Below, piece by piece: positions 9,638-38,339 of a DNA stretch of 41,572 nucleotides (positions within the stretch are counted from its first letter, which is position 1; each line of letters starts with the position of its first letter). Source of the stretch: an uncultured Pirellulaceae bacterium (GTDB lineage Bacteria; Planctomycetota; Planctomycetia; Pirellulales; Pirellulaceae); contig CALHZT010000159.1 of NCBI GenBank assembly GCA_938040995.1, positions 1-41,572 on the forward strand. Reading direction: 5' to 3'. The notes under the pieces were generated by a model, which ran no database searches, had not been told where the DNA came from, and was given only the letters and a program-made list of their open reading frames with translations. Made by a program: the position numbers and the translations under genes.

Positions 9638-11881
9638 CTACCTCAACGAAATCTTTTTGGTTCCTCTGCTTCGCTTCGCCATCAACAGGTTGCAAAAGGC
9701 GATCAAAAGCAGCGACAGGCTGGACGGCTCTGGTACGAGGCTCGTGCTATCCGGAATCGTCAATCCAAAGTTGTCTGACCAGATCTGATAGTCGAGGCTA
9801 TCGACGATACCATCCAGATTTGCGTCGGCGGTGGCCAGTGAACTACCCAACGCGTCGCGCCAAACCGTGTAGTCTGCGGCGTCAACGATGCCATCACGAT
9901 TGAAGTCGCCTACGGTACTTGTTTCCGTCGACAGGATCAACGACGTAGTGACCAGTTGACCACCGTTACTGGTGAAATCGACATACACTTCGTTATTGCC
10001 GTCGACAAGAAATGCCAACGGCACTTCCACCTCACGACTGAACAGCCAGCTATCTCCATCATCAAACCCGTTTGACCCGGATGCGGGTACCGTGATGACG
10101 TTACCGTTAACGACAATCTGGAACGACTGGTTCCAGATATTTGAACGCTCCGCAATAGCGACTCTCAACAATGCCGAATTCGCCGCTTCGATGTCTGCGT
10201 CGATATTGATAACCTTCGACCTCGCCCCGGCCAGATTGATTGGAGCTTGAACGTCATCGCCATAGTAAGTCGTCTCGTTAACCAACGTTGAGCCAAAACC
10301 CGTCACGTCATCGAGAGTTAAAGTCAGTTTTGCGCCTTCCTCGCCAGTCAAGTTCAGGCTTTGCCAGGAATCGGTCACATCGACATCATCAAAAAATACA
10401 CCTTGTGATCCATTCCATACGACTCGATCCAATGTCGCACTCGCCACCGAGGCGGATCCGATCATCGCTTGTAAATTCACCGATTGGTTACCGTCGTCCA
10501 GGTTATTGAGGATGATGTGCAGCTGGTTACCATCGCGAAATGCCAACGACTGAAGATCCGGATTGCTCACGTTCACGGGAACGTATTCGCCGTCGATATC
10601 GTTAAACATGCGATACATGCCCGCCACAATGGTTTCGGCCCAATTCCCGTTGGATAGTCTTTCCCACATTACGTAATGGGCGCCATTCTCTTCCGTCGGT
10701 GAGCTGCCGGTGTACCACTGCGGAGCAATAAAAGGAGTCGCATTAATGATGCGGTCCGGGCGGTCCATGAAGACCATCAGCTTTTTCTTGATATCACGCA
10801 TCTCATCCCACTGGCGTTCGCGCCTCGTGTAGCTGCCAAAATTCTGGCTGCCATCCTCCGTGTAAATCGTGGCTCCGTACTCAGTGACGGCAAACTGCTT
10901 GGGGTCGCCGAACTTTATGTCACTGTATGTTTCGAAAAGGTCCATGATGCCTTCGAGATGACCAGGCGACGCTCGCACCTGGGTTTCAACACTGCCGTTC
11001 GTGCGAACACGGTGAACGTCGTATGGGTGAAAAGTCCAGAAGTCCATCTCGACTGGATTGCCCGACGAATCCTGCCAAGTCGTCATGTCATCCATCAACT
11101 GTCTTGCAAGATCCCAACGATGAGGGTTCCACACGGGAAATGGAGCTTCGCCCACGGACGCGCCGCCAAGCTTGGCCTGCGGGAACTGTTCCTTCACGCG
11201 AATTGTTACGTTCTTGTGAAACTCAATCACGTCATTCCAGGTGACACCACTGTGCAACTCGAGCTGCGGTTCGTTCATGATCTCGACATAGAAGCGATCC
11301 TTGTCGAACGGCAAGTATCCCTGACCGGGCCCGGTACCATAGACGACTTCTTCCAAATACGTGTTGAGGAAATCGCCATAGGCAGCGCCGGCTCCATGGA
11401 TCGGCATTGAGGTTCCGTCTCTAACCCAAGCTGGCCAATTGCCATTTGCCCTGCCCGACTGCACGAGAACTGGATTCGGATGCTGTCGCAACGACTGCCA
11501 GCGAGAGCCATTCAACACCCAGTCTTTGTAGCCCCCCTGCAAATTGTTAACCAAATCAGCACGTCGGAAAAATCCTGGATTCGCGGGATCTTCAGGGACG
11601 TTGTTGGCAACAAAAAAATCGAACTCGAAAGTCTCGCGGCCTGTGACCGAATGCAATCCAGTTGGAGATCGGACTTCGTTGGCGAGGTTGCCGAGATTCG
11701 TATTCGTCGGTGGATCGAACGTCCCCCAATGATTGAAATACCTGGCCCGGTCCAGTAATCCCACACCACCAATCGCCCGCTTCAATGTTCCGTCGATCGT
11801 AACCGTCGTCTGTGCCGCAACGACACTGGTTAACAAGAGAATCAAGCAATAGCTGGTTACAAGATTTCGAGAGATTCGCAT
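9638..11881 (-). CDS. Secreted GH86-like beta-agarase/porphyranase with dockerin-like repeat and PEP-CTERM sorting tail
   Basis: Signal peptide MRISRNLVTSYCLILLLTSVVAAQ; KRAIGGVGLLDRARYFNHWG; YVEIMNEPQLELH (candidate acid/base); GDFNRDGIVDAADYTVWRDALG...DANLDGIVDSLDYQIWSDNFG; VPEPSSLSLLLIAFCNLLMAKRSRG. ORF opens at 11983, preferred ATG at 11881. Confidence 0.65.
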   Translation of the reverse strand: MRISRNLVTSYCLILLLTSVVAAQTTVTIDGTLKRAIGGVGLLDRARYFNHWGTFDPPTNTNLGNLANEVRSPTGLHSVTGRETFEFDFFVANNVPEDPANPGFFRRADLVNNLQGGYKDWVLNGSRWQSLRQHPNPVLVQSGRANGNWPAWVRDGTSMPIHGAGAAYGDFLNTYLEEVVYGTGPGQGYLPFDKDRFYVEIMNEPQLELHSGVTWNDVIEFHKNVTIRVKEQFPQAKLGGASVGEAPFPVWNPHRWDLARQLMDDMTTWQDSSGNPVEMDFWTFHPYDVHRVRTNGSVETQVRASPGHLEGIMDLFETYSDIKFGDPKQFAVTEYGATIYTEDGSQNFGSYTRRERQWDEMRDIKKKLMVFMDRPDRIINATPFIAPQWYTGSSPTEENGAHYVMWERLSNGNWAETIVAGMYRMFNDIDGEYVPVNVSNPDLQSLAFRDGNQLHIILNNLDDGNQSVNLQAMIGSASVASATLDRVVWNGSQGVFFDDVDVTDSWQSLNLTGEEGAKLTLTLDDVTGFGSTLVNETTYYGDDVQAPINLAGARSKVINIDADIEAANSALLRVAIAERSNIWNQSFQIVVNGNVITVPASGSNGFDDGDSWLFSREVEVPLAFLVDGNNEVYVDFTSNGGQLVTTSLILSTETSTVGDFNRDGIVDAADYTVWRDALGSSLATADANLDGIVDSLDYQIWSDNFGLTIPDSTSLVPEPSSLSLLLIAFCNLLMAKRSRGTKKISLR

Positions 11882-12129
11882 CAGCTTCTTCCGTTTGGTT
11901 TGCCTGACCAGATCGATCCCGATTGCATTCACGCAGTTCCTGGACGACCGAAAGTCAAAGAGCCCAAGCCGCCAGATCGGCACGAGCGACGAATTACCAA
12001 GAGGCGCAATAGCATGCTTTGCTCTAGCCCATTTCGCAGCTTAAATGGCAACTAGAACACTGTAATGCAGTGATTGGAATTCTTCAAGCAGTTTCTGGGA
12101 TTCCAGCAAATCACGTGTCGCTTTACCCT

Positions 12130-13227
12130 CTACCGCTTTACTCTGAGGCTCCCGCCTTGGGCTAGCGAAATGACTTCGTCAAGTGACGCCATCGAGGTAT
12201 CGCCGGGAGTGGACATGGCCAGAGCCCCGTGAGCCGCCCCGTACTCAACGGCAGTTTGTGCGGATTTCCCTGATAACATTCCGTAAATGAATCCGGAAGC
12301 GAAGCTGTCTCCTCCTCCGACGCGATCCAGGATTTCCAGATCTTCTCGCATCGTCGATTCGAAAAACCTGTTTTCGTACCAGCAGATGGCTCCCCATGAA
12401 TTGACGGTGGCTGTTTTCACGGTTCGAAGTGTTGTCGCAACGGCTGCGAAATTCGGATACACCTCCACCGCTTTTTCAATCATGCGTCGAAATGAATCGA
12501 CTTGTACAACGGCAACGTCATCACCGAGCCCATCGACAGCCAGCCCCAGGCAGGCGGTAAAGTCTTCTTCATTTCCAATCATCACATCGACCATCGGAGC
12601 AATATGACGGTTCACCTGTTGCGCTTTATCTTTGCCACCGATGCCGTCCCACAACGAAGGTCGATAATTGAGATCGTAAGAGACCACGGTGCCATGGGAT
12701 CTTGCAGCTTCGATGGCTTCGACAACTACGTCCGCCGAACTGTCGGACAACGCAGCGAAGATTCCCCCAGTATGAAACCAGCGGACTCCCAAATCACCAA
12801 ACAATCCAGCCCAGTCAATATCGCCAGGCTTTAGTTGGGAGGCTGCTGTTGCGCCGCGATCTGACACGCCGATCGCGCCTCGGACGCCGAAACCGCGTTC
12901 TGTAAAATTCAGACCGTTCCGTACGTTTCGGCCGCTACCATCTGACGGTACCCAACGAATCCAGTCCGTACACACTCCACCTTGAAGTATGTAATTTTCG
13001 ATCAGTCTGCCAATTTCATTATCGGCGAACGAACTCACCAGGCCCGTTTTGAGGCCAAAGCAACGACTTAAGCCACGAGCGACGTTGTACTCGCCTCCAC
13101 CTTCCCAGGCCGTAAAATGTCGAGCCGTCCTAATCCGCGACTCGCCTGGATCCAGCCGAAGCATCACTTCACCCAGTGAAATCAAATCATATTTACAAGC
13201 TTCTGGTGGCTTTACTTCAAGCATCAA
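12130..13227 (-). CDS. kdgK: 2-keto-3-deoxygluconate kinase-like PfkB sugar kinase
   Basis: YDLISLGEVMLRLDPGESRIRTA, EGGGEYNVARGLSR, RVGGGDSFASGFIYGML (PfkB signature); adjacent to eda. Confidence 0.8.
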   Translation of the reverse strand: MMLEVKPPEACKYDLISLGEVMLRLDPGESRIRTARHFTAWEGGGEYNVARGLSRCFGLKTGLVSSFADNEIGRLIENYILQGGVCTDWIRWVPSDGSGRNVRNGLNFTERGFGVRGAIGVSDRGATAASQLKPGDIDWAGLFGDLGVRWFHTGGIFAALSDSSADVVVEAIEAARSHGTVVSYDLNYRPSLWDGIGGKDKAQQVNRHIAPMVDVMIGNEEDFTACLGLAVDGLGDDVAVVQVDSFRRMIEKAVEVYPNFAAVATTLRTVKTATVNSWGAICWYENRFFESTMREDLEILDRVGGGDSFASGFIYGMLSGKSAQTAVEYGAAHGALAMSTPGDTSMASLDEVISLAQGGSLRVKR

Positions 13228-13250
13228 ATTCCCTCACAGACTGTTTTCAA

Positions 13251-13895
13251 TCAACCGCTTCCTGCCGCGAGGCTTACCGCCTCGATCGCGAGTTCCTTAA
13301 TCTCGGCAAACCGACGATCTGCAAGCAATTCGGCTTTCGCAATCCAGCTTCCTCCGCACGCAGCAACGCAAGGAAGGCTTAGGTAGTTCGCGAGATTGTT
13401 CGCGTTGACGCCTCCCGTTGGCATGAACTTCACCGCCGCATAAGGCGAACTTAGCGCTTTCAGCATGGTGATTCCTCCCAACGCTTCTGCCGGGAAGAAT
13501 TTAACGTGCGTAAGGCCCAACGCTAACGCCAACTCGAGATCCGTTGGAGTCGCGATGCCGGGTACAATTGGAATATTATTGTTCAAGCACCATTCGACTG
13601 TCTTGGCATTGATACCAGGAGTCACAATAAAAGCGGCTCCAGCATCCGAGGCAAGCTTCGCATCATCGACACTATGAATGGTTCCTGCACCGACGAGGAA
13701 GTCACTCTCCCCTGCCATTCGTTCAATTGACGGAATCGCAGCCGGAGTCCGCAGGGTAATCTCGGCCACGGCCAGTCCGCCTTCGCGAAGCGCCTCTGCC
13801 AACGGCAAGGCTAACTCGGCATCCGGCATTGAAATCACCGGCACGACCTTCAATTGCTCGATTTGTTGGAAGGATTCATTCATGGATAAAGTCAC
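13251..13895 (-). CDS. eda: KDPG/KHG aldolase
   Basis: KVVPVISMPDAELALPLAEALREGGLAVAEITLRTPAA, VGAGTI, HVKFFPAEALGG, KFMPTGGVN, CGGSWI. Confidence 0.9.
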   Translation of the reverse strand: MTLSMNESFQQIEQLKVVPVISMPDAELALPLAEALREGGLAVAEITLRTPAAIPSIERMAGESDFLVGAGTIHSVDDAKLASDAGAAFIVTPGINAKTVEWCLNNNIPIVPGIATPTDLELALALGLTHVKFFPAEALGGITMLKALSSPYAAVKFMPTGGVNANNLANYLSLPCVAACGGSWIAKAELLADRRFAEIKELAIEAVSLAAGSG

Positions 13896-13960
13896 ACTCG
13901 ACGACTTGTCGCGGGGCGAGGCAAACGAAAGGAACTACCATCTCGCATCACTGGTATTCC

Positions 13961-14047: not shown

Positions 14048-16387
14048 ATGAGAATCCAACATTGCAGGTTGATGCCTACGTTGGTTCTTGCGATCAGCAC
14101 ATTGCTGCATCCCTCCTTTTCGCAGGAAAATTTTCCAGCAGATGAAGAAGCGGCCGAAAGATTGGTCGATTTCCGTGACGGAATCCCTGGTATTTTCAAG
14201 TCGACCAACTCGAAAATCCGACTCGTTCCGTTCCCCGGCCGCGAAAGTCCAGACGCTGTTCTTGTCGAAACAGATTCCAACCACCAAGTATCCGGCGTCT
14301 CGATCCAACCAGATTCGCCGTGGAATTGGAGCGAAAAGAAGGAGTTTGGTTTCGCGATCGACATTGCCAACGTCGGTGAGATTTCGGCTCATCTGTATGT
14401 CGAGATCGCCAGCCATGGGGACAGTCAGGTTCGGGGAATCAACATTCCCGCCGATGGCGAGGTCAGGACCTATTACGCGGTGCTCGACGGAGACGAACTG
14501 AAGATCGACAGTGGGCTTCGCGACGGTCCTGATGATCGCCAGTTTGCAGGTAGAAAACTGACTTGGCTTTGGGGGGAAAAGTCATCCGAATTTGCCATGG
14601 AGCAGATTACAGAAGTTAGTATCTATTGCGATACGACTCTGCACAATCGCCAGTTCATCGTTGGCAACATACGCCTCATCGCTAATCCACCTCTCAAAAC
14701 AGACAGCCTTACTGCGATTTGCGACCGGTTCGGACAAAACAACAAAGTTGATTTTCCGATGAAAGTCAAATCTGAGGCCGAACTCAAATCATTGGCGGAC
14801 GCTGAACGTGCTGAACTCGAAAATTCGCACCCCATGCCCGACCGGTCGAAATTCGGCGGATGGACAAAGGGCCCGAAGCTCAAAGCCACCGGTTACTTTC
14901 GCACCGAAAAAGTTGGCGGCAGGTGGGCGCTGGTTGATCCTGAAGGATATCTCTTTTTCTCGACCGGAATCGCGAACGTCCGACTGTCGAGTACCACGAC
15001 TTTGACCGGTGTTGATTTTAAACGAAAGCCCCGTGTTCTCCATTCGAAAACTTCGTACCCGGAAGATTCGAAGCCAAAAGCAAAAAAGGGCGCCGCAGGC
15101 CGTGCAGTCAGATTCACCGCATCCGAATTGCGGACGAAGATGTTCACCTGGTTGCCCGAGAACGACAGTCGGTTTTCAGACCATTACAGTTACACGCGGA
15201 AGGTTCATACAGGCCCGATGTCACATGGTGAGAACATCAGTTTTTACCGAGTCAATCTCGAACGTCGCTATGGCCAATCGCAACCCAATTCATATCTGGA
15301 TACCTGGCGGGATGTCACAGTCGCGAGAATGCTGGATTGGGGATTTACCAGTTTTGGCAACTGGACCGACGAAATGTTTTATCACGTCGAGCAAATACCA
15401 TATTTCGCCAATGGCTGGATCACAGGTAAGTTCAAAACGATCGACTCCGGGAATGATTACTGGTCACCGATGCCCGACCCGTTCGATCCCGAGTTCGTTC
15501 GCCGAGCCAGAATCACGACCACGTCGATCGCCAACAAGGTCAAGCGTAGTCCATGGTGCATCGGTGTCTTCATCGATAACGAAAAGGGCTGGGGGCGCAT
15601 GGGCTCCTTCGAGTCGCAATACGGCATTGTGATCAACGCGCTCGGTCGCGACGCTTCAGAATGTCCTACAAAGGCAGCCTTCGTAAAGCTACTTGAAGAA
15701 AAATACAAAAGCGTCCAATCTCTAAATGACGCATGGGATATTGACGTCTCATCATGGGATGAGTTTGCCAGGCCAATGCAAGTGGATGCTCAAAATGCTG
15801 CGGTCGTCGACGACTTTTCGAAAATGTTGTACGTATATGCCGCCGAATACTTTCGCGTCGTTCATGACAGCTTACAAGCCGTGCTTCCAAATCACTTATA
15901 CATGGGAGTGCGCATGGCTCACTGGGGAATGACTCCTGAAGTCCGAGCCGCCGCCGGCGAGCACTCAGATGTCATCAGCTACAACTTCTACAAGGAAGGG
16001 ATTCGCGCTGACGACTGGAAGTTTCTCGCCAAGCTGGATATGCCGAGCATCATCGGCGAATTTCACATGGGTGCCGCCACGGATTCTGGACTATTTCATC
16101 CGGGGCTCATCATGGCGGACGATCAGACTGATCGAGCGCGAATGTATCTGGATTATATGAATTCCGTCATCGACAACCCTTACTTTGTTGGCGCGCACTG
16201 GTTCCAGTACATCGACTCGCCGTTAACCGGGCGAGGCCACGACGGCGAAAACTACAATGCGGGTTTTGTCAGGAGCACTGACATTCCCTACTCGGAGATG
16301 GTCACCGCAGCGAAGGAACTTCATCGCGGACTGTATCCGCGTTGCTTCGGCGACGTAGTGAAGCAACAGCCACAAATAACCAACTGA
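14048..16387 (+). CDS. Secreted GH50-type beta-agarase (copy 1)
   Basis: Signal-like N-terminus; TGYFRTEKVGGRWALVDPEGYLFFSTGIANVRLSS, FGNWTDEMFY, WITGKFKTIDSGNDYWSPMPDPFDPEF, GVFIDNEKGWG, SIIGEFHMGA; paralogous along its length to 35643-37961. Confidence 0.85.
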   Translation: MRIQHCRLMPTLVLAISTLLHPSFSQENFPADEEAAERLVDFRDGIPGIFKSTNSKIRLVPFPGRESPDAVLVETDSNHQVSGVSIQPDSPWNWSEKKEFGFAIDIANVGEISAHLYVEIASHGDSQVRGINIPADGEVRTYYAVLDGDELKIDSGLRDGPDDRQFAGRKLTWLWGEKSSEFAMEQITEVSIYCDTTLHNRQFIVGNIRLIANPPLKTDSLTAICDRFGQNNKVDFPMKVKSEAELKSLADAERAELENSHPMPDRSKFGGWTKGPKLKATGYFRTEKVGGRWALVDPEGYLFFSTGIANVRLSSTTTLTGVDFKRKPRVLHSKTSYPEDSKPKAKKGAAGRAVRFTASELRTKMFTWLPENDSRFSDHYSYTRKVHTGPMSHGENISFYRVNLERRYGQSQPNSYLDTWRDVTVARMLDWGFTSFGNWTDEMFYHVEQIPYFANGWITGKFKTIDSGNDYWSPMPDPFDPEFVRRARITTTSIANKVKRSPWCIGVFIDNEKGWGRMGSFESQYGIVINALGRDASECPTKAAFVKLLEEKYKSVQSLNDAWDIDVSSWDEFARPMQVDAQNAAVVDDFSKMLYVYAAEYFRVVHDSLQAVLPNHLYMGVRMAHWGMTPEVRAAAGEHSDVISYNFYKEGIRADDWKFLAKLDMPSIIGEFHMGAATDSGLFHPGLIMADDQTDRARMYLDYMNSVIDNPYFVGAHWFQYIDSPLTGRGHDGENYNAGFVRSTDIPYSEMVTAAKELHRGLYPRCFGDVVKQQPQITN

Positions 16388-16398
16388 GCACTACAATT

Positions 16399-17973
16399 AT
16401 GCGAACGTCCCAATCGAATGCGTTTTACTATGCTGCCATTGTGACTCTGGGCGGCTTTGTATTCGGATTAGACTTGGGAGTCATTGCAGGTGGACTCAGT
16501 CAGATATCTGAGCAGTTTGGACTCAGTGATATCCAATTGGGTGCCATTGGAGCCGCGCCGGGCTTCGGAGCGATTTTTGCACTGTTCTTCGCAGGACCGA
16601 TCAGCAATCGACTAGGTCGTAAAGCAACGATTCAATTGATTGCTTTACTCTATTTGGTCTCAGCCGTGACATCGGCGCTCGCGCCGGATTACCGGATGCT
16701 CTGGTCTGCAAGGTTTCTTGGTGGTCTCGCATTTTGTTCTTTGGCGCTCGCCTCGATGTACATCGGCGAAATCGCACCGTCGGACAAACGCGGCCGCCTT
16801 GTCGCGATGAACCAGATCAATATTGCGCTGGGACTATTGGCGGCGTTCTTTATCAACTTCCTTATTCAACAAATTGCCGATTCAGGTTCCGAGCTGGCGG
16901 TATCGCTAAATCTACAGACAACCGCTTGGCGCTGGATGCTTGGGTCCGAAATCATCCCTGCGCTGGTCTGGTTACTACTTTTGTTTGGCGTTCCGAAAAG
17001 TCCTCGGTGGCTGATGTCGGTTGGTCGCGAGGACGAAGCGCGCACCGCCATGTCCAAAGTGCTTCCTGGGGAATCGGTTGAACCTGAAATGCAATCCATT
17101 CGGCAAAGCATGTCTCAGCGCGAAGCTGGCGCCACTTCCTTCTCGCAACTCTTTCAACTGTTTGGCCGACACGCCCGAAAAGCCACCATCCTCGGAATCG
17201 TAATAGCTGCTGTTCAGCCAATTACTGGCATCAACGCAATATTGACCTATGCACCGATCGTGTTCGAACAAGCAGGTTCAGCCGATCCACTTTGGAATAC
17301 GATCTGGATCGGAGTCGTTGGACTGCTGGCTAATTTTCTTGCGTTTGCGCTGGTCGATCGACTTGGTCGCCGGCCGATCGTTGTGTTTGGCCTTTTTTGG
17401 TGTGTACTGAGTTTGTCAGCTTGCGGATGGGCGTTTCATCAGGCCCGATACTCGCTGGACGAAGCAGCGGTTGCCGCAGTTCAATTGGAATTAGGGGAAG
17501 AGCACGCATCGGCTGTCGCCAACCTGACGAATGAAATAGATGTTGAGTATGCCAACGACATTGAATTCATGAAGGGCATGAAGGCGGCGCTCGGGGAAGA
17601 ACTGGCCAATAGCCAAAAGAATTTTCTGATTGGGAAGGCCGCGCAACTCAACACCAACTTGGTGCTCGCTGCCATCCTGAGTTTCATCGCGGCATTTAAC
17701 GTCTCGATCGGACCGATCATGTGGGTTGTCTTTTCTGAAATCTTTCCGACAACACTTCGTGGTATCGCCATTCCGGCGGCTCAGTTGGTAACTGCTACTG
17801 TCAACTACTTCGTTCAACAGTTCTTCCCATGGCAGCTTGCGAATATGGGCGCACGAGACATTTTTCTTTTCTATGGAATTTGCGTCACCGTTGGCTTGGT
17901 CCTGCTGTTCTTCCTGCTCCCGGAAACCAAAAACAAGTCCATTGAGCAAATTGAATCCGAGCTGAATGGATAA
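16399..17973 (+). CDS. MFS sugar porter (candidate importer of agar-derived sugars)
   Basis: GFVFGLDLGVIAGGL, NRLGRKATIQ, GRLVAMNQINIALGLLAAF, VDRLGRRPIVVFG, PETKNKSIEQIE. ORF opens at 16342; ATG at 16399 preferred. Confidence 0.87.
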   Translation: MRTSQSNAFYYAAIVTLGGFVFGLDLGVIAGGLSQISEQFGLSDIQLGAIGAAPGFGAIFALFFAGPISNRLGRKATIQLIALLYLVSAVTSALAPDYRMLWSARFLGGLAFCSLALASMYIGEIAPSDKRGRLVAMNQINIALGLLAAFFINFLIQQIADSGSELAVSLNLQTTAWRWMLGSEIIPALVWLLLLFGVPKSPRWLMSVGREDEARTAMSKVLPGESVEPEMQSIRQSMSQREAGATSFSQLFQLFGRHARKATILGIVIAAVQPITGINAILTYAPIVFEQAGSADPLWNTIWIGVVGLLANFLAFALVDRLGRRPIVVFGLFWCVLSLSACGWAFHQARYSLDEAAVAAVQLELGEEHASAVANLTNEIDVEYANDIEFMKGMKAALGEELANSQKNFLIGKAAQLNTNLVLAAILSFIAAFNVSIGPIMWVVFSEIFPTTLRGIAIPAAQLVTATVNYFVQQFFPWQLANMGARDIFLFYGICVTVGLVLLFFLLPETKNKSIEQIESELNG

Positions 17974-18232
17974 ATCAGACGGCACCTACAGCATGGGGCA
18001 AAGGACTGCAATGAGATCAGCCATCGACGAGTAAGGGTGGCGAATCACTCACAGGTGTTTTCCCATGACTCGCTCCTCGAGAGTGACTTTGCAAGCGATC
18101 GCGGACAGAACTGGAACTGCGTGGAATCGTCTATTAGACTCGTAGAATCCCAGCGAGTGTGCTGACGCTCGGGAATTTCAATTTGTGTCGAAGTACTAAT
18201 GCGGATATCAGAACACACTAACTTCAACAAAT

Positions 18233-21200
18233 ATGACACGTCAAAAGCCAATTGCAGCAATCGCTTTGCTCGTCACTCTGGCGATGTTCGCTCGAGTCGT
18301 TGCTGATTCGTCGATCGTCGATTTTGACACACAGATCCGACCAATTCTTTCCGATCGATGCTTCGCTTGTCATGGTCCCGACGACAATGATCGACAGGCC
18401 GACTTGCGTTTCGACCAACGCGAATCGGCGATGCGCGAATCTGAATATGGTGAACGGGCCTTTGTGGTGAAGCCGGGAGCGCCAGAAGACAGCGAACTCC
18501 TATTGCGGCTGACAACGTCCGACGAAGACCTGAAAATGCCACCTCCAGATTCGCACCTGAAAGTGTCAGCTGACGAGGTTGAGTTAATCCAACGATGGAT
18601 CGAACAGGGAGCTGAATGGACCGACCATTGGGCGTTCGTCCCGGTCGATACGACTCTCACGCCACCAGAATTAAAAGGCGATGACTGGTCGAACGGTCCC
18701 ATCGACAAGTTTATTTTGGCTCGCTTGCGAGAACAAAGGCTTACACCAGCGTCGGAAGCAAATCGCGAACTGTTGGCTCGGCGAGTCCATCTCGATTTGA
18801 CCGGCCTGCCACCGACGTTGGCCCAGCTAGATCAATTCCTCAATGACAAATCGCCCAACGCCTATGAAAAACTGGTTGATCGCCTGTTGGCATCGGCGGC
18901 TTATGGGGAACGGATGGCTGTTGCCTGGTTGGATGTTGCCCGTTACGCAGACACCCATGGCTATCAACTGGACTTCGAGTCGCACGTTTGGCCATATCGC
19001 GATTGGGTCGTACAGGCATTTAACGAAAACCTGCCCTGCGATCAATTTATCACCTGGCAGTTGGCGGGTGATTTATTGCCGTCGCCAACTGCGGAACAGA
19101 CTCTTGCCACGGCTTTCAATCGACTGCATCGTCAAACCAATGAAGGCGGCAGCGTCCTGGAAGAGTTCCGGATAGAGTACGTCGCCGACCGAGTCGATAC
19201 TTTCGGCGTGGCGATGCTCGGCTTGAGCGTTGGTTGTGCCCGTTGCCATGACCATAAGTTTGATCCCATCAGCCAGAAAGAGTACTACCAACTTGCCGCG
19301 TTCTTCGACAACGTCGACGAATCGGGAGTCTTTTCTTACTTTACAAAGGCGACTCCTTCGCCCTCATTCGATACCCCAACTGAAGAACAGACACTCCGAC
19401 TGGAGAAGTTGCGTAAGGATGTCGCAGCTCGACAATCTGAACTTGAACAAGTCGCTGAGCAGCAACGCAACGCGTTCAACGACTGGTTCGGCAAGGAACG
19501 CAAGTCGCTCGACTCTGAGGAGCAATTCGTCAAGCTGTTGAAAGACGGTTTAATCGGTCATTTCGATTTTGAGAAGATCACGCCGGCATCGTCAGTAAAA
19601 GCGGAAGCTGACTCAAACGGTCGGAGCAGCGATCAGGACAGCGATACCAATAGCAAACCAACTCTTGCCAATGTTGTCGATTCAACTACCAACGCTGAAC
19701 TCCACGAAAGTCCACTCATCGTGCCGGGGAAAACTGGCAACGCCCTTCAATTGAATGGCGACAACGGCTTTTCCACGGCGGTCACCAGTTCTTTTTCACG
19801 ACATGACGAATTTTCCTTCGCGGTCTGGATCAAGTCATCGCAAAACCAACAACGCGCGACCATATTTCACACCACGAAAGCGGGTACTGACGCGGGACAT
19901 CGTGGTATCGAATTGATCATTGCAGAGGATCAGCTCGAAGTCAGTCTTTGCCACTACTGGCCGGGCAATGCGATACGGATACGGGCACTTGATAAGCTGC
20001 CAGTCGATGAGTGGTACCACGTTACGCTGACGTATGACGGGTCAAGTCAGGCCAGCGGACTGCGGCTTTATTTGAACGGCAAACTGCTGGAAACAACCGT
20101 GATTCGCGACGAATTGACGCGAGCGATTCGATATTTGAAAAAAGATTCTGTTTCCTACAAAGCCGGAGACAGGCAGCATCACTTGACCGTGGGGTACCGA
20201 TTTCGCGATCGCGGACTGGCTGGTGGCGAGATTGACGAGTTGAAGGTTTATGCTCGTCAACTGACGCCGATTGAAATCCGTGCGATCTCAGGTAGCGTTG
20301 TCTCCGATTGTTTCACCGCAGCAGAGTCAAAACTATCCTCTGAGGATGAGCAGAGTCTGTTCGAACTCTTCCTGTCACGAGCCCCGTCGCACGCGAAAGC
20401 ACGTGCTGCGCTGCACGATGCACGCTTGGCACTTGGGAATGCTGCGGACGGAGTCCAGTCGATAATGGTCATGCGAGAAATGGCGACGCCACGCAAAACG
20501 TACATGCTGAATCGAGGTGCTTACGACTCGCCAGCCAGTGAAGTACAGCCAGGCGTAATTGCCAAATTGCTACCACTTAAATCCGACTTTCCGAAAAACC
20601 GTCTTGGTCTTGCCCGCTGGCTGACCGATGCGCAGCATCCACTGACTGCCCGAGTCGCCGTAAATCGAATTTGGCAAACGATCCTGGGACGAGGTTTGGT
20701 CGCAACTCAGGAAGACTTCGGCAGCCAGGGGGGGCGTCCATCGCACCCTTTGCTACTCGACTACCTTTCCCACGACTTTGTCAACAATGGGTGGGACACA
20801 AAGCGTTTGGTCAAACAAATCGTGATGTCGGCAAGCTACCGCCAGTCGTCTGTCTCCTCTGCAGATCTAATGGAACGCGATCCCGAGAACTCGATGTTGG
20901 CTCGCGGACCCAGCCGTAGATTGACCGCGGAAATGATTCGAGACGGCGCGCTCGTGGCCAGTGGTCTTTTAGTCAATCGAGTCGGCGGCGCGCCAGTCAA
21001 ACCGTATCAACCTGCCGGACTTTGGAAGGAATCCATGCCGGTAGAGTACAAACGCGATAGGCACGAAGGCAGCCGTCGCCGAAGCCTTTATAGCTTTTGG
21101 AGGCGAACGCTGCCGCCACCGTCGATGCTGACGTTTGATGCTGCGAAACGCGAGGTCTGCACGGTCCGCCGTCAAAACACTGCGACTCCCCTTCAGGCGT

Positions 21201-21529: not shown

Positions 21530-21533
21530 TCGA

Positions 21534-26505: not shown

Positions 26506-27522
26506 CTAAGCCTGACAGTCGATCAGGTACTTAATTCCGTCCGGATTCGCATCAATCGATTCGAATGTTTCTTGCGTTTTGTCGATCGGTTCGATCGACG
26601 TAATCAGTTTGTCGAGAGAAAGCTTCCCTTCCGCAGCCAGTCGAATGGCTTCGTCAAAATCCTCTTCTTCATACAGTCGGGTTCCAATCAGTTGCAATTC
26701 TGACCAGAAAAAGCTGAACAGGTTGACCTCTCGCGGCTGAGGGTGAATCGCCACCATGACGACCCGACCGCGAACGCAGAGTAAGTCCGTCATGACTTTG
26801 ACGCCAGCCGCCGAACCGGAAACTTCAAAGGCGCAATCGGCCATTGCTCCGTTCGTCAGACGATCGACTTCTGCCACGGCATCCGCAGTCGCCGGATTAA
26901 TCGCAGTCAGCCCCAAAGACTCGGCGAGCGCGATTCGTGACTGGTTCACCTCGAGCAGGATCACGTTGGCCCCTTTTTCGCGAGCCACCAGAGCGATTAG
27001 CAAACCAATCGGCCCACCACCGATGACCACACACGTTTCGCCTTTGGCGACTTTGCCCAGCCGGACATCATGACAGGCCACAGCAGCCGGTTCGATCATC
27101 GCGCCGTGTTCAAGACTGAGCGCATCAGGCAGCGGATGCAATGTGTAGGATGGCACCGTCCAGGATGACTGCATGCCGCCGGGCGAGTCGATACCGATAA
27201 ACTTCAGGTTCTTGCCGACATGTTTTTGCTCACGATCAAACGCGGTGGGTTCACCAAAATGGAGCGGTCGAATGGCGACTCGCTGGCCAACGGTCACCCC
27301 GTCCACGCCGACTCCGAGTTCCGCAACGGTCGCGGAAGCTTCATGCCCGATGATTTGCGGATTCGCGACTCGCTGATCCATCGCTCCATGAAAGATGTGC
27401 ATGTCTGTTCCACAGATGCCGCAAAACGCCACATCCAGTCGGACTTGGCCTGCCTCGGGAGGAACGCGTTCGCCTTCCACAATTTCGACCCTTCGATTGC
27501 CAACATATTGAGCTGATTTCAT
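26506..27522 (-). CDS. Zn-dependent medium-chain alcohol dehydrogenase, candidate 2-keto-3-deoxy-L-galactonate 5-dehydrogenase
   Basis: FCGICGTDMHIFHG, GHEASATVAELG, VVIGGGPIGLLIALVAREKGANVILLE; context in the anhydrogalactose operon. Substrate is inferred. Confidence 0.75.
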   Translation of the reverse strand: MKSAQYVGNRRVEIVEGERVPPEAGQVRLDVAFCGICGTDMHIFHGAMDQRVANPQIIGHEASATVAELGVGVDGVTVGQRVAIRPLHFGEPTAFDREQKHVGKNLKFIGIDSPGGMQSSWTVPSYTLHPLPDALSLEHGAMIEPAAVACHDVRLGKVAKGETCVVIGGGPIGLLIALVAREKGANVILLEVNQSRIALAESLGLTAINPATADAVAEVDRLTNGAMADCAFEVSGSAAGVKVMTDLLCVRGRVVMVAIHPQPREVNLFSFFWSELQLIGTRLYEEEDFDEAIRLAAEGKLSLDKLITSIEPIDKTQETFESIDANPDGIKYLIDCQA

Positions 27523-27548: not shown

Positions 27549-28154
27549 TTATTGAATGTTCGCCAGCAACAGTCGAGTCGCCAATTTGATGTTCCGTTTG
27601 CGGAGCGCCCGAACGATTTGAGCATGTTCGTGATGGCTTTCCATCATGCTACCGTGACGGCTGTAGTGGAGCATCATGCGACTGACAATTGGCAACCAGA
27701 CTGAGGACAATTCGCTAACGCCACTCGCCTCGACAAGATAACGATGCAGCGCCATATCGCAATGGATGACCTGACTCATGTCTTCCTTTTCGCAAGCCGC
27801 GCGGAGTGCCTCGACGAGTTTGTCCAGCGCATCAAAATCGTCATCATCAAGTCGTTTTATCGCATGCTCGAGCGCAAAGAGTTCTATCTCCTGCCGCAAC
27901 TTGATCACAAGCGGTTGAAGCGGTTCATCGATCCCTCCGACTCGCACGCCACAATTCGGCTTCGCTTCCAAAAGTCCTTCTTGTGTCAACTGAAGGAGCG
28001 CGTCGCGGACGGGTGCCCGGCTGACACCGTATCGATCCGCAAGCGCCTGTTCGCGCAGGTTGGTACCCATCGGCAACTCGCCAGAGAGGACTTCATTGCG
28101 AATGCGGTCGGCAATCTGCTCTCTCATCGTTCGAAAAACGTTGGCTCCACTCAT
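27549..28154 (-). CDS. GntR/FadR-type (FCD) transcriptional regulator 1, first gene of the anhydrogalactose operon
   Basis: REQIADRIRNEVLSGELPMGTNLREQALADRYGVSRAPVRDALLQLTQEGLLEAKPNCGVRV winged helix plus FCD. ORF opens at 28274; ATG at 28154 preferred. Confidence 0.87.
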   Translation of the reverse strand: MSGANVFRTMREQIADRIRNEVLSGELPMGTNLREQALADRYGVSRAPVRDALLQLTQEGLLEAKPNCGVRVGGIDEPLQPLVIKLRQEIELFALEHAIKRLDDDDFDALDKLVEALRAACEKEDMSQVIHCDMALHRYLVEASGVSELSSVWLPIVSRMMLHYSRHGSMMESHHEHAQIVRALRKRNIKLATRLLLANIQ

Positions 28155-28159
28155 ATTGC

Positions 28160-28175
28160 AGATTGTATACAATCT
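28160..28175. promoter_or_regulatory. 16-bp perfect palindrome AGATTGTATACAATCT, putative GntR operator
   Basis: Read directly, 5 bp upstream of the preferred GntR-1 ATG; resembles FCD-GntR operators with a TTGTATACAA core. Confidence 0.65.
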
Positions 28176-28379
28176 ATGCGGAATGGGAAGAGGACCGAAT
28201 AGAGCCCACATGCGGTGTTGAGCTCTTCGCTCGAAAATTTTGAGGCACTCACCATGCCGATGATTCAATGGCAAAGTGATCGTTTACGGCCAGCTCAAGC
28301 ATCGAACGACAATGAGCGTTGGTTCGAGGGAACCTGGATGGAAACTGGTTCGAGGAATGAAGAATATCCGGGGAAGAAA

Positions 28380-29141
28380 TTATTCTTCGCGATCGATACG
28401 CTCAAGTTCTTTCAAAAGCTCACTTGGCAGATCGCTCGGCAACATATCAGGCGCCCGATGCTGCGACGTTTCGCGGTCGAGTTCCTGCAAAACATATCGC
28501 TTACTCTGCGAAATATGATTTTCCATCACGATTCTGGCTTTTTCAGGGTCGCGATTCTTGAGCGCGGAGATCACACCATCGTGGTCTTCATGAGCCTCAT
28601 CGACGACTCGTAAATCAAGCTGAGGGCGTTGCAATCGGAAAACACTAAATACCATTCGCGTTTCTGCGACTGCCCGTTGTAGTCGAGGATTTCCTGTGGC
28701 GTGCAGGATCAACATGTGGAACGTCATATCTGCAGAGAACAATTGTTGCATTGGCTCGCCTGACAAAACTAACTGCCATTTTTCGCGAGCATCTTCTCCA
28801 ATTTGCTTCATGGCAGAGGTTAGCGCTTCGAGCTTTTCAATTTGTCTTGGAGTAGCAAGCTCAGCGACTTTGCCTGCGGCAAATGTTTCGACGGCTTGGC
28901 GCATATCGAAAAGATCAATGAGCTCCGCGCGGCCAACATGTCGAAGGACAGCGCCTTTTCTGGGGATTTGGTCGACAAGGCCTTCTCGAGCCAGTTGGCG
29001 AATTGCTTCACCTACCGGGGTGCGACTCATCCCAAGGTGTTCGGCGATAGCCGCTTCGGTGATAATGTCCCCGGACACCAGGTGCCCCATAAGGATGAGG
29101 TGGTGAATATGGGCATAGGCCTGATCGGTAAGTTTTGACAT
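28380..29141 (-). CDS. GntR/FCD transcriptional regulator 2
   Basis: LTDQAYAHIHHLILMGHLVSGDIITEAAIAEHLGMSRTPVGEAIRQLAREGLVDQIPRKGAVLR; paralogue of the next gene. Confidence 0.88.
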   Translation of the reverse strand: MSKLTDQAYAHIHHLILMGHLVSGDIITEAAIAEHLGMSRTPVGEAIRQLAREGLVDQIPRKGAVLRHVGRAELIDLFDMRQAVETFAAGKVAELATPRQIEKLEALTSAMKQIGEDAREKWQLVLSGEPMQQLFSADMTFHMLILHATGNPRLQRAVAETRMVFSVFRLQRPQLDLRVVDEAHEDHDGVISALKNRDPEKARIVMENHISQSKRYVLQELDRETSQHRAPDMLPSDLPSELLKELERIDREE

Positions 29142-29191
29142 CGGGCAAACTCGAATGCGTATCGTCCAAGAGGCCTCCATTAGAAATGTGA

Positions 29192-29364: not shown

Positions 29365-30135
29365 CTAGCAGTGATTCCCGTTTTCAATTTCTTCCAGCTT
29401 TGCCCGTAAGTCCTCAGGTAGCGTGAACTCTTCATTGACGCGCGACTGGGATGCTTCCATGTCCAATTCCTTAAGCACGTGATCACGGCTGGCTACGATG
29501 TGCTTCTCCATGGTCGATCGTGCTACATCCCTTTTGCGATCTTTGAATGCGGCAATGATTAACTCGTGTTCGTCGTGAGCTTGCTCAACGATTCGCAAAT
29601 CCAGAATGGGACGCTGCATTCGGAATACGCTGAATACCAAACGAGTGTCAGCAATTGCTCTCTGCAGACGAGCATTTCCAGTGACTTGCAAAATCAACAT
29701 ATGAAATGCCATATCAGCGGAAAGCAGCCGTTGCAGTAACTCATCACTCAGTCCAACCGGACCGCTACCATTAACAGAGCGTGCTGCCTCGGTTATTTTC
29801 TTCATCGCATTGCTAAGCGCAACAAGTTTGTCGATCTGCTTCGCCGTGATCCTGTCGGCGGCCTTCTCCGCTGCGAAGCTCTCAACAGCCTGCCGCATTT
29901 CGAACAAGTCGATTAGGTCTCGCCGGTCAAACGTGCGAAGAATGGCCCCTTTGCGAGGCATCTGTTCGACCAATCCTTCGCTCACGAGTTGACGGATGGC
30001 TTCGCCGACGGGAGTGCGACTCATCCCCAATACTTCTGCAATCTCTGCCTCAGTAATCACACTGCCGGACTGAAGCTTCCCGTTGAGAATCAGTTGCTGA
30101 ATGTGCGTGTACGCCTGCTCGGAAAGTGACCCCAT
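29365..30135 (-). CDS. GntR/FCD transcriptional regulator 3
   Basis: LSEQAYTHIQQLILNGKLQSGSVITEAEIAEVLGMSRTPVGEAIRQLVSEGLVEQMPRKGAILR; paralogous to regulator 2. Confidence 0.88.
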   Translation of the reverse strand: MGSLSEQAYTHIQQLILNGKLQSGSVITEAEIAEVLGMSRTPVGEAIRQLVSEGLVEQMPRKGAILRTFDRRDLIDLFEMRQAVESFAAEKAADRITAKQIDKLVALSNAMKKITEAARSVNGSGPVGLSDELLQRLLSADMAFHMLILQVTGNARLQRAIADTRLVFSVFRMQRPILDLRIVEQAHDEHELIIAAFKDRKRDVARSTMEKHIVASRDHVLKELDMEASQSRVNEEFTLPEDLRAKLEEIENGNHC

Positions 30136-30212: not shown

Positions 30213-30519
30213 TTCGCCATGCCAAGCCACTCAAACGATGAATCAATTAAAAAAACGTGCGATTTTGGGGAATCTCCCCACCTACCAACACTTCTCAGGC
30301 ATCAGCAACAGAATAGCTGTCGCAGAGGAATTTTTCAATTCCTTTGTGGTATTCCAAGCTTACGAGAGGCAAGAAAATAGTGTTTTCGGACATGAGTTAC
30401 CATTCGACCCGAATAGTTTCAAGCGAGTTATCCGAAGATGAGCGTTGCACCAATCCTTGTCGGATTGGCTTACCGTAGCGCGAAAATAACACGCTGTACT
30501 TTTGCGACTTGGCGGCACG

Positions 30520-34551: not shown

Positions 34552-35625
34552 CTACTCGTATGTGTGACGTTTGACGAAATGATCTTTAAGCGTTTCGTCT
34601 GCTTCAAAACGTCGGATGTAACCGGTGCCGTTATCATCATCCACGTGATGACAGAGGCCCCAGCGAAGTCCTTCGAGCGGGCCGTTGTCATGATCGGGCG
34701 TGCGGAACAGACCGTTCGCATGGGGAGCGCCCTTGATAACCGCCTGAATCTCAAAGTTGATGCCGTCAGGAGCCCACTGAATCGTGTTCTTCTCGGGACC
34801 ATCCGTCGTGAGCATCGCGGCGATGCCACCGTTGTAATGCCAAACGCAAACTTCGTGACCAGAATTGGTCACAGGATTGTATTCGCTGCGAACGTAGGGG
34901 CCTTCAGGCTGGTCAGCGATGGCAACACCCCATTTCGTCTCGCGCCCACCGAAGAACATCTCTTCGCCCATCGGTTCGCCCTTGTAGTACAGGTAAAACT
35001 TGTTTTGAAAGAACATCAGCGTGGGGTCGTGGACTTTGTGGCTGTCGAAGCTACCCTTCTTTGACACAAGGAAGCGATTGTCTTCGTCACCTTCCCATTC
35101 GCCGTCGGCCGACGTTTTCAGAATCGGGCCGTCGACTTTTCTCCACGGGCCAAACGGCGAATCGGCGACCGCCATCGAAACGTGCTCGAACGATCGTCGA
35201 ACATAGGGATGTTGGACAACCTGATAGACGAGATAGAACTTGCCGTCATGCGCAAGTACTTCGGGCGTGAAGACGCTCCGGTCATCGTAACTTCCTGCCG
35301 GCCCTCGCTCGATGGCGACGGCGTCTTCTTCCCAATGCCAGCCATCCTTGCTCGTGCCATGCCAGACGTCGCACTTGTCCCACGGGAACGTCTTGTTGTC
35401 CAGATCGCCTGAGCCGAAACCGTAACTCTTGCCAACCGACTTGGTGTACCAGACATGATACGTATCATCGACCTGAATCACCGCACTTGGGTCGCGGCGG
35501 ACCGTGTCGGCTTTCTTTTCAGCCAGGTCGCCGGTGATGTCTTTGCTGACGATTTCGCAAAACCATTCCGGGCCTTTGTCCCAGGCCTGGGCTCGAATAC
35601 TGGCGGCGCTAAGTTTCTTGGTCAT
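34552..35625 (-). CDS. GH117-type alpha-1,3-(3,6-anhydro)-L-galactosidase (neoagarobiose hydrolase), no signal peptide
   Basis: [108 protein letters not shown] (five-bladed propeller, GH117-like). Confidence 0.82.
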
Positions 35626-35642
35626 GGGGTAAGTCTTTCCTT

Positions 35643-37961
35643 TTACTTCTGGTCAGCAACCTGCCCATAGGCTTTTTCGTACAGGTCCTTGTTGAATGCT
35701 TTGGCGGCGTCAACCAGTGGTTTGTAAGGAATGTCTGCGACCGTCACAAAGCCAATCGGGTAATTTTCTCCATCGTGCGGCCGACCGGTAACCGGCGAGT
35801 CCAGATACTGGAACCAGTGAGCGCCGACGAAATACGGGTTCTCGATGACGGACTGCATATAAGCCGTATACATCGCGGCTCGATCCTGCTGGTCGGCTGC
35901 GTGAATGATTCCCGAATGGAAGTAGCCGGTATCATTCGAACCCATATGCCATTCGCCAATGATGCTGGGCTTGTCGACGTGCGGGAGAAAGTCCCAAACC
36001 CGTTTGCCCAGCTGCTCGTGGTAAAAGTTGTAGCTCATCATGTCGCAGTACTTTGACGCCGCCTGGCGACTTTCGGCGGTCAATGCCCACGGAGCCATTC
36101 GGCAACCGAGATACATATGGTTCGGCATCACCTCAGCCAGCGCGTCATGGACGATGCGGAAGTATCCATCGCAGTACATCTGGGAAAGCTCAGAAAAGTC
36201 GTTGAGCATCTCCGGATCTTCATACTTTTCCTGCCTGGGAAAACCGGCAGCGAACGCATCCCACGATTCGACGTCTGTCCCCCACGCTTCATTAAGTTTG
36301 GCGGAGTCGCCGTATTTCGATTTCAGCTTTTCGACCCAGGCCGCTTTTAATGGCGACTCAGACGCATTCAGCGCCAAGCCGTTAATGACAATTCCGAAGC
36401 GGTGAGAGGGCGAATTCATATTCCCCCACGACTTTTCATTGTCGACAAAGACACCAACGCACCACGGATTGTTTTGCACTTCATCAGCGATGACCTTCAC
36501 TGTCGCCTTGGCACGGCGCTCGAACTCAGGATCAAACACATCGGGCATCGGACCCCAGTAGTCGTGACCGGAACTGACGGTTTTGAATTCGCCAATGATC
36601 CAGCCGTTGGCGAAATACGGCAGCCGATTCATCTGGTAATACGAAGCGTCCGTCCAGTTGCCGGTGCAGGTAAAGCCCCAATCCTTGAATCGCTTGATAG
36701 TGATGTCTCGCCAGTTTGCCATGATCTCATCGTTGGTCTTGCCTCCATATTTGCGTTCGAGGTTCGCACGATAAAAAGTGAACACCTCACCGTGTCGAAT
36801 CGGACCGATGTGTGCTTCGCGGCGGTAACCATAGTGCTTTGCCAGCGGGTCGCTGTATTCAGGCAGCCACGTAAAGAACTTTCGGCGTTCCGGGTAAGCC
36901 ACGTGAGCCGTTGCCCGGGCTTCATCCGACGATGGCTTGATGTCGAGCGAGTCTTCGGGGGTGACGTCTTCTGGATCGCGGTAGCGGACTGAATCATCAC
37001 GAAAATCTACGCCCGTAAAAGTCGACGTATTCGACATGCGTACGTTCGCGATCCCGGTCGCGTAGTAGAGGTAGCCGTCTGGATCGACCATCGTCCAACG
37101 ATCGCCAATCTTTTCAGTACGGAAAAAGCCAGTCGCCTTGAGCTTGGGGCCTTTTTTCCACCCGCCATATTGGCTGCGATCATCCGACCAGCCGCCTGCA
37201 TTCAATTCGGCAAGCTCCGCCTCAGTGCGACGTTGCAGGTCCTCGGCGTCTTTGACTTTGCCATCAAAATCGACAGCCGTACTTTGACCAAACTCATCGA
37301 CGAGTTTCTCGTAGTAGTTTTCCTTTACGGGTGGATTGGTGACGAACTTCAGGTTATCGAACACCAATACGTCCGGATCGGCACCGTCACGAACAAAAAA
37401 CTCAATCAACTTGATCTTCGAACAGTCGCCTTTCTGTTTCAGGCCGGCAACGACCATCTTCGTGCCAACGCCCTCGAGCGATTGCGGGTCTTCGCGAAGT
37501 CCCCGGTCGGTATCCACATATTCACCAACGAGTTCGAAGTAGTAAGTCGTCGGTCCGCCTTTGGGAACGCAGATCATGCGGTTCAAATGGACTCCGTCGT
37601 TGGCTGTGATCCGGCAATAAAGCACGATCGACGAAGGGCCCGTGTTCGTTGCGTCGAAAGACAGTCGATATGCTTTCAACCCACTGCAATCCCACGGCTC
37701 TTTCGCCTGGAACTTGATGCTCGAGAAACCCCGATCTACCGGAAATGCGACTTGCAATGCGCGACTGCCTTCGGTCACGCCATCGCCAGTTACCAGGCTG
37801 ACCTCAACACCGTCGACTCCGACGGAATCGTCGATCGCATCCATCTCAAAGGAATGGACCGCGATTGAATCTTCGCCGTATGTCACGTTGGCGGTGATCG
37901 CGGCAAGGAGTAACAGGAAGCCAAAAGAAACAGTTCGTTTGCGGGTAGAGTTGTTTGCCAT
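35643..37961 (-). CDS. Secreted GH50-type beta-agarase (copy 2)
   Basis: Signal peptide [136 protein letters not shown] opens at 38009. Confidence 0.87.
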
Positions 37962-38339
37962 TTTTGCCTTCGATACTGAAATTGACCGGTTCTCGCGCGT
38001 GTTCGCCAAGTTGGCGAGATACGTGGAGTCGCTGTTTTTTACGGCTGAAATTCAGAGGGCCAGCTTGCGAGTTCCACAGAGCGTTTTCGGGATTCTATCT
38101 GATCCACTTTCGAGTTTCCACTGCCGATGAGGTGACGTCATCGGTTTAGAGCAATTCTGAGGTTATCGTTCGCCAATGTAGTCAAGTCCTGCAATTGAAC
38201 GCGCCGCCTTGACACAATTGGCAGAACTATTGGCAATCGCGCGGCTTCGTTCATCACCATTGCTTCGGCGAGCGGGAAGGTCTTGCTGGAGACGATTTAT
38301 TGCCGCCGTTTGCCTGACTTCGGTCGCTCGCCCCAAGCA

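Follow-up and report, generated by a model that had tools for sequence, protein, structure and literature searches.

The breakdown of agar by bacteria is already known in its enzymology and in its route, which leads from agarose through neoagarobiose to D-galactose and 3,6-anhydro-L-galactose (AHG), and further to 2-keto-3-deoxy-6-phosphogluconate (KDPG), with pathway steps published for Aquimarina, Paraglaciecola, and Streptomyces (PMC10163077, PMC5943477, PMC9706016). L-AHG is converted via 3,6-anhydro-L-galactonate (AHGA), 2-keto-3-deoxy-L-galactonate (L-KDGal), 2,5-diketo-3-deoxy-L-galactonate (L-DDGal), and 2-keto-3-deoxygluconate (KDG) into KDPG, by AHG dehydrogenase (AHGD), a cycloisomerase, EC 1.1.1.389, EC 1.1.1.127, KdgK, and Eda (PMC10163077, PMC5943477). 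The neoagarobiose-splitting enzyme, of glycoside hydrolase (GH) family 117, is found in two settings: it is periplasmic in Bacteroides uniformis NP1, where RhaT was proposed for AHG import (PMC5849685), while Aga117F of Saccharophagus degradans has no secretion signal and is regarded as cytoplasmic, with import of the disaccharide proposed (PMC3124978). Here we describe an agar locus in a 41,572-nucleotide stretch of DNA from an uncultured Pirellulaceae bacterium (the whole contig C159, CALHZT010000159.1, referred to as the window), which belongs to an assembly of 5.66 Mb in 425 contigs, estimated as 86.5% complete; all genome-wide absences given below refer to this assembly. Its identity as a real agar utilization locus of a planctomycete is well supported by the sequence comparisons, and what is new concerns a putative change of the uptake route within one family, a candidate operator, and an association with PSCyt/DUF1501 proteins.

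Organization of the locus and its enzymes

Gene identities were taken from Pfam, NCBIfam, and PDB searches, and the active-site motifs were inspected. The window encodes two GH50 enzymes, one GH86, one GH117, a major facilitator superfamily (MFS) porter, AHGD (an aldehyde dehydrogenase, ALDH), AHGA cycloisomerase, a KduD-type short-chain dehydrogenase/reductase (SDR), a zinc-dependent alcohol dehydrogenase (ADH), KdgK, Eda, and three FCD-GntR regulators. All of these, with galK at the left edge, lie where an initial annotation had placed them. The order in the left half is GH86 (-), KdgK-Eda (-), GH50A-MFS (+), and PSCyt/PSD1-DUF1501 (+), and in the right half cycloisomerase-ALDH-SDR-ADH-GntR1-GntR2-GntR3 (-), CEMIP/G8 (-), and GH117-GH50B (-). 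The intergenic gaps in the run from the cycloisomerase to GntR3 are ~24, 51, 23, 26, 105, and 184 nt, and GH117 and GH50B are separated by ~18 nt.

Both GH50 enzymes (47% identical to each other) match the S. degradans β-agarase 4BQ2 over almost the whole length (E 3e-231 and 7e-218 for A and B, respectively), and both carry an Agarase_CBM domain and the catalytic glutamates of the DNEK and IIGE motifs. GH117 is aligned nearly full length with the solved anhydro-α-L-galactosidases (E 1e-126 or better; 3R4Y with 5e-143, and 5TA7 and 4AK5 also among matches of about 1e-143 to 1e-134), with the catalytic motifs RRDPSA, HDP, and SGHE kept. GH86 matches 5TA1, 8H97, and 4AW7 (E 2e-41 to 3e-28), with residues 53-682 spanned by the best match, to 5TA1, which is listed as a β-agarase (PMC10163077); the match covers the catalytic and β-sandwich domains and the catalytic glutamate motifs MNEP and TEYG are kept, but the similarity is so distant that agarase and porphyranase are not distinguishable. 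Profile and PDB searches thus agree with the families named in the initial annotation. Export signals are predicted on GH86, GH50A, and GH50B, and none on GH117. A search of the genome for a GH2 β-galactosidase gave no match; odd-numbered agaro-oligosaccharides would thus not be handled by an enzyme of this family, and the GH50s fit a neoagarobiose-only route.

The window carries candidates for all six enzymes of the AHG route. The cycloisomerase is matched by 2OVL (E 6e-124) and by the AHGA cycloisomerase 5XD7 (E 7e-110), and keeps the active-site set of SCO3480 (K, K, D, E, E, D, H, plus E317). The residue list is that of PMC9706016, where the eighth residue is printed E307. The 2OVL alignment has Leu at 307 and Glu at 317, thus Glu-307 in the legend of its Fig. 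2 is probably a misprint. The ALDH matches 6J75 (E 9e-179), which is the closest characterized match of AHG dehydrogenase in PMC10163077. The SDR scores 325.3 bits against TIGR01832 (kduD equivalog), 13 bits short of the curated cut-off of 338.85, and for this reason is called KduD-type and not KduD. The zinc ADH is proposed as the L-KDGal 5-dehydrogenase (EC 1.1.1.389) from its position and its homology to ADHs of agar loci.

The order of depolymerization, GH117 cleavage, AHG oxidation, and cycloisomerization, as read in the initial annotation, matches the published route, but its description of the locus as complete is overstated: neither galactose mutarotase nor GalE turned up in the window, the GalT match in the genome (outside the window) is weak, GH2 is absent as noted above, and entry through the outer membrane is unexplained. 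The initial annotation is right that the locus lacks SusC/D, TonB, and sulfatase genes. There is no SusC/D pair among the window genes, as would mark a Bacteroidetes-type polysaccharide utilization locus (PUL), no classical sulfatase in the window, and no TonB-dependent receptor in the window or in the genome.

Conserved core and a proposed change of the uptake route

Among 241 same-family genomes, 50 have a GH117-like gene (E ≤ 1e-40) and 18 a close GH117, this genome included. ADH-SDR-AHGD-cycloisomerase-GH117 is common in the neighborhoods of the other 17, often with KdgK-Eda and GntR alongside. The central module of the window is closest to same-family genomes, with identities of 79-85% for SDR, 70-76% for ADH, and 69-75% for AHGD. 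The ADH-SDR-AHGD-cycloisomerase set is, as judged from these identities, the family's own module and an inherited core. The same four genes adjoin GH117 in a flavobacterial locus (L049). Some same-family genomes (G432, G433, G532, G534, and G543) carry 7-8 GH117-like matches, mostly of 38-49% identity.

GH117 itself is different. It is 56-59% identical to the same-family copies versus 71-80% to copies in Verrucomicrobiota, Sumerlaeota, Latescibacterota, Deinococcota, a Bacteroidota-labelled metagenome-assembled genome (MAG), and two other planctomycetes, although mis-binning is possible for those of the records that are MAGs. In the tree it falls in this multi-phylum clade of 12 rows (support 100/99), apart from the same-family copies. 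No member of the clade, the window copy included, has a signal peptide, whereas in the same-family GH117s it is clear in 13 of 17, a hydrophobic stretch is present in two more, and two could not be judged. The lack of a signal peptide, which is also the mark of the Saccharophagus-type cytosolic neoagarobiose route, makes a cytosolic location probable.

Besides the window, the clade comprises 10 distinct loci, and in 8 of them a transporter gene stands beside GH117: MFS in six (L038-L041, L043, L044), ABC in L045, and Nramp-like in L046. The last one (L046:8367-9884, an Opitutales genome) is directly upstream of a cytosolic-type GH117 and is an odd candidate for a neoagarobiose importer. The MFS porter of the window is 43-48% identical to the MFS directly upstream of GH117 in five of these loci (L038-L041, L044), and is proposed to import neoagarobiose. 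The same-family agar loci hold a RhaT-like permease and an aldose 1-epimerase instead. The RhaT-like gene is present in 16 of the 17 same-family agar genomes (15 at ≥ 58% identity, one as a contig-edge fragment), in ten of them within ~12 kb of GH117; in the present genome it gives no match at E ≤ 1e-5. Both routes are known, as described above; what we infer here is that the route changed within one family, with neoagarobiose, formerly cleaved in the periplasm, now imported whole and split in the cytosol, whereas the close relatives would cleave it outside and take up the monosaccharides. The GH117 and MFS route has probably replaced, by horizontal transfer, the exported GH117 and RhaT-like permease of the family. 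This difference of the uptake half from the family's own was not seen in the initial annotation.

A candidate operator in several of the promoters

A candidate palindromic motif, CTGGKATTCCAG (short form TGGKATTCY), is found ahead of GH86, KdgK-Eda/GH50-MFS, the PSCyt-DUF1501 pair, and the run from GntR to the cycloisomerase. CTGGKATTCCAG occurs as a full palindrome 112 nt ahead of GH86 and in the region separating Eda from GH50A, and the site of the PSCyt gene is 91 nt ahead of it. In an unbiased 10-mer search of eight agar promoter regions (1.8 kb), with 150 dinucleotide shuffles, the 10-mer was found in five of the eight regions, a number reached by none of the shuffles. All five copies of TGGKATTCY in the window are in promoters (0.79 expected per 41.5 kb). 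In the background of 845 kb from other contigs of the same genome it occurs 16 times, and the full palindrome CTGGKATTCCAG is not present there. TGGT-ACCA sequences are operators of FCD-type GntR proteins, and the window motif resembles these. The shared motif suggests one regulon.

PSCyt/DUF1501 pairs

Two PSCyt/DUF1501 pairs (5105-9469 and 18233-23003) and the 1247-aa CEMIP/G8 protein were missing from the initial annotation. In the exported PSCyt protein of the second pair, a LamG-type lectin domain accompanies two CxxCH motifs. Foldseek with its model (predicted local distance difference test, pLDDT, 72) gives mainly lectin-domain matches, which were read as a generic ConA-like lectin domain and nothing further. 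The window holds two pairs versus 0.17 expected (with 23 DUF1501 matches per genome), and the 17 same-family neighborhoods show four complete cases versus 1.04 expected (Poisson tail 0.02, uncorrected for relatedness). Pairs are also near GH117 in Botrimarina and in an Opitutales genome, and thus recur beside GH117 in Planctomycetes and Verrucomicrobia. The Botrimarina locus (L044, B. hoheduenensis Pla111) comprises GH50, MFS-GH117, PSCyt-DUF1501, and GntR genes. Such proteins were reported near sulfatases in Verrucomicrobia, with their function called unknown (PMC5615132).

The GH117-linkage labels cluster on the DUF1501 tree (14 of 500 shuffles are equally low), and in one clade six of nine members, drawn from two families, are GH117-linked. 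DUF1501 a of the window is sister to the GH117-linked Opitutales copy. DUF1501 b was rejected as an orthologue of the GH117-linked clade, as it is found on a separate branch, with other copies from elsewhere as the nearest relatives. The AlphaFold model of DUF1501 b (pLDDT 82) is matched in Foldseek by sulfatases and phosphatases (E 2e-6, with a TM score of only ~0.35), in line with a predicted membership in the alkaline-phosphatase/sulfatase superfamily. Neither DUF1501 a nor b has the Cys/Ser-x-Pro-x-Arg formylglycine motif or the SDHG metal motif. The sole match to C/S-x-P/A-x-R in the two proteins is SAASR at position 257 of DUF1501 b, which has no proline. DUF1501 was therefore rejected as the "missing" sulfatase: the superfamily fold agrees, but the motifs are absent.

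The association of the pairs with agar loci is suggestive, as judged from these counts and the tree. The stronger proposal, that the di-haem PSCyt/PSD1 cytochromes and DUF1501 proteins are dedicated agar-locus parts, lectin-bearing, exported, and co-regulated with the agarases, which would take the role of TonB/SusCD or of sulfatases by acting on agar, or binding it, in the periplasm or on the cell surface, is tentative and we regard it as rather doubtful.

Proposed mechanism and alternatives

In the proposed mechanism exported GH86 would open the polymer and the exported GH50s would release neoagarobiose, which the MFS porter would carry through the inner membrane. Cytosolic GH117 would split it to D-galactose, passed to GalK, and L-AHG. 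The latter would be oxidized by the ALDH and converted by the cycloisomerase to L-KDGal, whose C5 epimerization, by oxidation with the zinc ADH and reduction with the KduD-type SDR, would give KDG, to be phosphorylated by KdgK and cleaved by Eda to pyruvate and glyceraldehyde-3-phosphate. The transcription units are probably linked by an FCD-GntR repressor on CTGGKATTCCAG-like sites. Taken jointly, an agar (agarose) locus with neoagarobiose import, cytosolic GH117, a GntR regulon, and a replaced uptake route is a likely explanation, in which we have good but not full confidence. Several points speak against it. The motif was first spotted by eye, is weak at the GH50B-GH117 promoter, and, not being found at the equivalent positions of related loci, holds for the window alone. 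For the MFS porter, which is here 16 kb from GH117, the substrate is assigned from gene neighborhood only; the GalT match is weak, and the similarity of GH86 to known agarases and porphyranases is low; and, with the genome 86.5% complete, RhaT, GH2, or TonB genes could sit in the missing parts.

Sugar-porter MFS proteins often transport monosaccharides, and the MFS is not next to GH117 in the window; both observations would suit a periplasmic GH117, exported by a non-classical path, with D-galactose or AHG imported by the MFS and no switch of compartment. We give this little credence, considering that no GH117 of the clade has a signal peptide, that orthologous MFS genes are directly upstream of GH117 in L038-L041 and L044, and that Aga117F, a relative with no secretion signal, is regarded as cytoplasmic with the disaccharide imported (PMC3124978). 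A substrate other than agarose, i.e., porphyran or a mixed sulfated agar, with GH86 as a porphyranase and the sulfatase encoded elsewhere, is similarly unlikely. GH86 does match the porphyranase β-sandwich Pfam domain and 4AW7 besides agarases, and one related same-family locus holds sulfatases, but the window has none, GH86 matches 5TA1 (a β-agarase according to PMC10163077) and 8H97 better, and GH50, GH117, and the full AHG pathway indicate a substrate rich in anhydrogalactose. That the genes are a chance grouping, or the contig chimeric, is very improbable: the MAG is fragmented, with contamination estimated at 3%, and GH117 is phylogenetically foreign, but the central module is closest to same-family genomes, the neighborhoods are conserved in other isolates and MAGs, cultured Botrimarina included, the composition of the contig is uniform, and the promoter motif is common to several units. 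The initial annotation's claim of one functional system is upheld by the conserved synteny, the operon-like spacing, and the shared motif.

Coordinates and other elements in the window

The features of the window are collected in Table 1.

Table 1. Features of the agar locus and its candidate operators, in window positions
Feature	Position	Strand	Basis or remark
Galactokinase GalK, entry of D-galactose to the Leloir pathway	729..1913	-	Pfam GHMP_N, GalKase_gal_bdg
DUF1501 protein a (twin-arginine translocation, Tat, signal), partner of 6572-9469	5105..6535	-	Pfam PF07394; agar-system membership uncertain
PSCyt1-PSCyt2-PSD1 protein, two CxxCH haem motifs	6572..9469	-	Pfam; membership uncertain
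GH86 β-agarase or porphyranase, exported	9638..11983	-	Dockerin-like repeat, PEP-CTERM-like tail
Candidate operator CTGGGATTCCAG, upstream of GH86	12095..12106
2-Keto-3-deoxygluconate kinase KdgK (PfkB family)	12130..13227	-	Family homologues 67-69%, beside Eda
KDPG aldolase Eda	13251..13895	-	Pfam Aldolase
Candidate operator CTGGTATTCCAG, divergent Eda/GH50A promoter region	13951-13962
Candidate operator TGGGATTCTC, divergent Eda/GH50A promoter region	13974-13983	-
GH50 β-agarase A, exported	14048..16387	+	Profile and PDB match, signal peptide
MFS sugar porter, proposed neoagarobiose importer	16342..17973	+	TIGR00879 sugar porter
Candidate operator CTGGGATTCTAC, upstream of PSCyt/DUF1501 pair	18142..18153	-
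PSCyt1-PSCyt2-LamG-PSD1 di-haem-c protein, exported, proposed accessory	18233..21529	+
DUF1501 protein b, Tat-exported	21513..23003	+	Predicted alkaline-phosphatase/sulfatase superfamily fold, no canonical sulfatase motifs
AHGA cycloisomerase	23075..24163	-	Profile, PDB, active-site residues
AHG dehydrogenase (ALDH)	24188..25660	-	Profile and PDB
KduD-type SDR, proposed 2,5-diketo-3-deoxygalactonate reductase giving KDG (EC 1.1.1.127)	25712..26482	-
Zinc ADH, proposed L-KDGal 5-dehydrogenase (EC 1.1.1.389)	26506..27522	-
GntR/FCD regulator 1	27549..28274	-	Homologues in same-family loci; 55% in Botrimarina
GntR/FCD regulator 2	28380..29180	-
GntR/FCD regulator 3, first gene of the regulator-catabolic run	29365..30135	-
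Candidate operator GTGGTATTCCAA, upstream of GntR3	30346..30357
G8/CEMIP β-helix protein, dockerin-like insert, 1247 aa	30520..34263	-	Surface or secreted accessory
GH117 anhydro-α-L-galactosidase (neoagarobiose hydrolase)	34552..35625	-	PDB match; no signal peptide, probably cytosolic
GH50 β-agarase B, exported	35643..38009	-	Ends ~18 nt upstream of GH117
Weak operator-like site CGGGATTCTA, upstream of GH50B-GH117	38088..38097	+	One mismatch

The CEMIP/G8 protein has an EPLESRRLL motif at the N-terminus. The closest relative, at 67%, neighbors GH117 in G514 (L088), but several genomes carry copies away from GH117, therefore it was rejected as a conserved locus part and kept as an accessory. 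A 42-nt inverted repeat (4747-4788/38649-38690, core GGGTCTGGCTCAATTTTTCGGCGGC) brackets the locus. With ≤3 mismatches the core has 145 matches in the genome, ~one per 39 kb (none for the reversed control); being dispersed in this way, it was discarded as a mobile-element boundary, and the bracketing pair marks nothing. Positions 2055-4591 hold an ABC transporter operon (SBP_bac_11, BPD_transp_1, ABC_tran), probably for ModABC molybdate uptake. Its ATPase open reading frame (ORF) overlaps the permease ORF by ~208 nt, so the listed ATPase start is probably too far upstream. The right edge (38768-41547) holds a PDZ protein, an unmatched 339-aa ORF, and an extracytoplasmic function (ECF)-type sigma factor, apparently outside the agar system.

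Significance and comparison with known systems

The window represents a contiguous polysaccharide-to-central-metabolism gene set in Planctomycetota, a phylum that is abundant on seaweed and for which little is understood of how polysaccharides are taken up without TonB receptors. That members of one family differ, with exported GH117 and RhaT on one side and a probably cytosolic GH117 and MFS on the other, is a natural experiment on the site of oligosaccharide cleavage. The recurrent PSCyt/DUF1501 neighbors give a substrate context to a large protein family that Planctomycetes and Verrucomicrobia share and whose function is not known, and Botrimarina hoheduenensis Pla111 is a cultured relative suited to testing it.

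GH50, GH86, and GH117 were already reported in genomes of Porphyra-associated planctomycetes (PMC4807772), as BLAST counts; the part of that source considered here describes neither a locus nor an AHG pathway, a transporter, or a regulator. Streptomyces coelicolor (SCO3480/3481/3486/3487; PMC9706016) shares the agarase, GH117, and AHG enzymes, and 2OVL, whose sequence fits SCO3480, is the nearest PDB entry to the cycloisomerase of the window, but this organism is Gram-positive and its agarases are DagA and DagB. PUL-a of Aquimarina sp. ERC-38 and the agar PUL of Paraglaciecola hydrolytica (PMC10163077, PMC5943477) have the AHG route with neighboring ADH, SDR, AHGD, and cycloisomerase genes; they differ in TonB/SusD or TonB uptake and in the presence of GH16 and GH2, and in Aquimarina KdgK and Eda are encoded elsewhere (PMC10163077). 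The agar PUL of B. uniformis NP1 (PMC5849685) resembles the window in GH86 and GH117 saccharification, and its RhaT proposed for AHG import is a feature of the same-family relatives; its SusC/D and periplasmic GH117-GH2 cycle set it apart, GH2 and RhaT being not found in the present genome. The view of the initial annotation that the locus is built differently from Bacteroidetes PULs thus holds for uptake but not for the catabolic core, since ADH-SDR-AHGD-cycloisomerase has the same set and order in L049 and in Aquimarina PUL-a (PMC10163077). S. degradans 2-40 (Aga50A/D, Aga86C/E, Aga117F, putative AgaT; PMC3124978) is a gammaproteobacterium with a GH16 endo-agarase, CBM6 modules, and genes at more than one place, and PSCyt/DUF1501 are not reported for it (PMC3124978), but like the window it combines secreted GH50 and GH86 with a GH117 regarded as cytoplasmic, and import of neoagarobiose by an inner-membrane sugar transporter was proposed there as well (PMC3124978).

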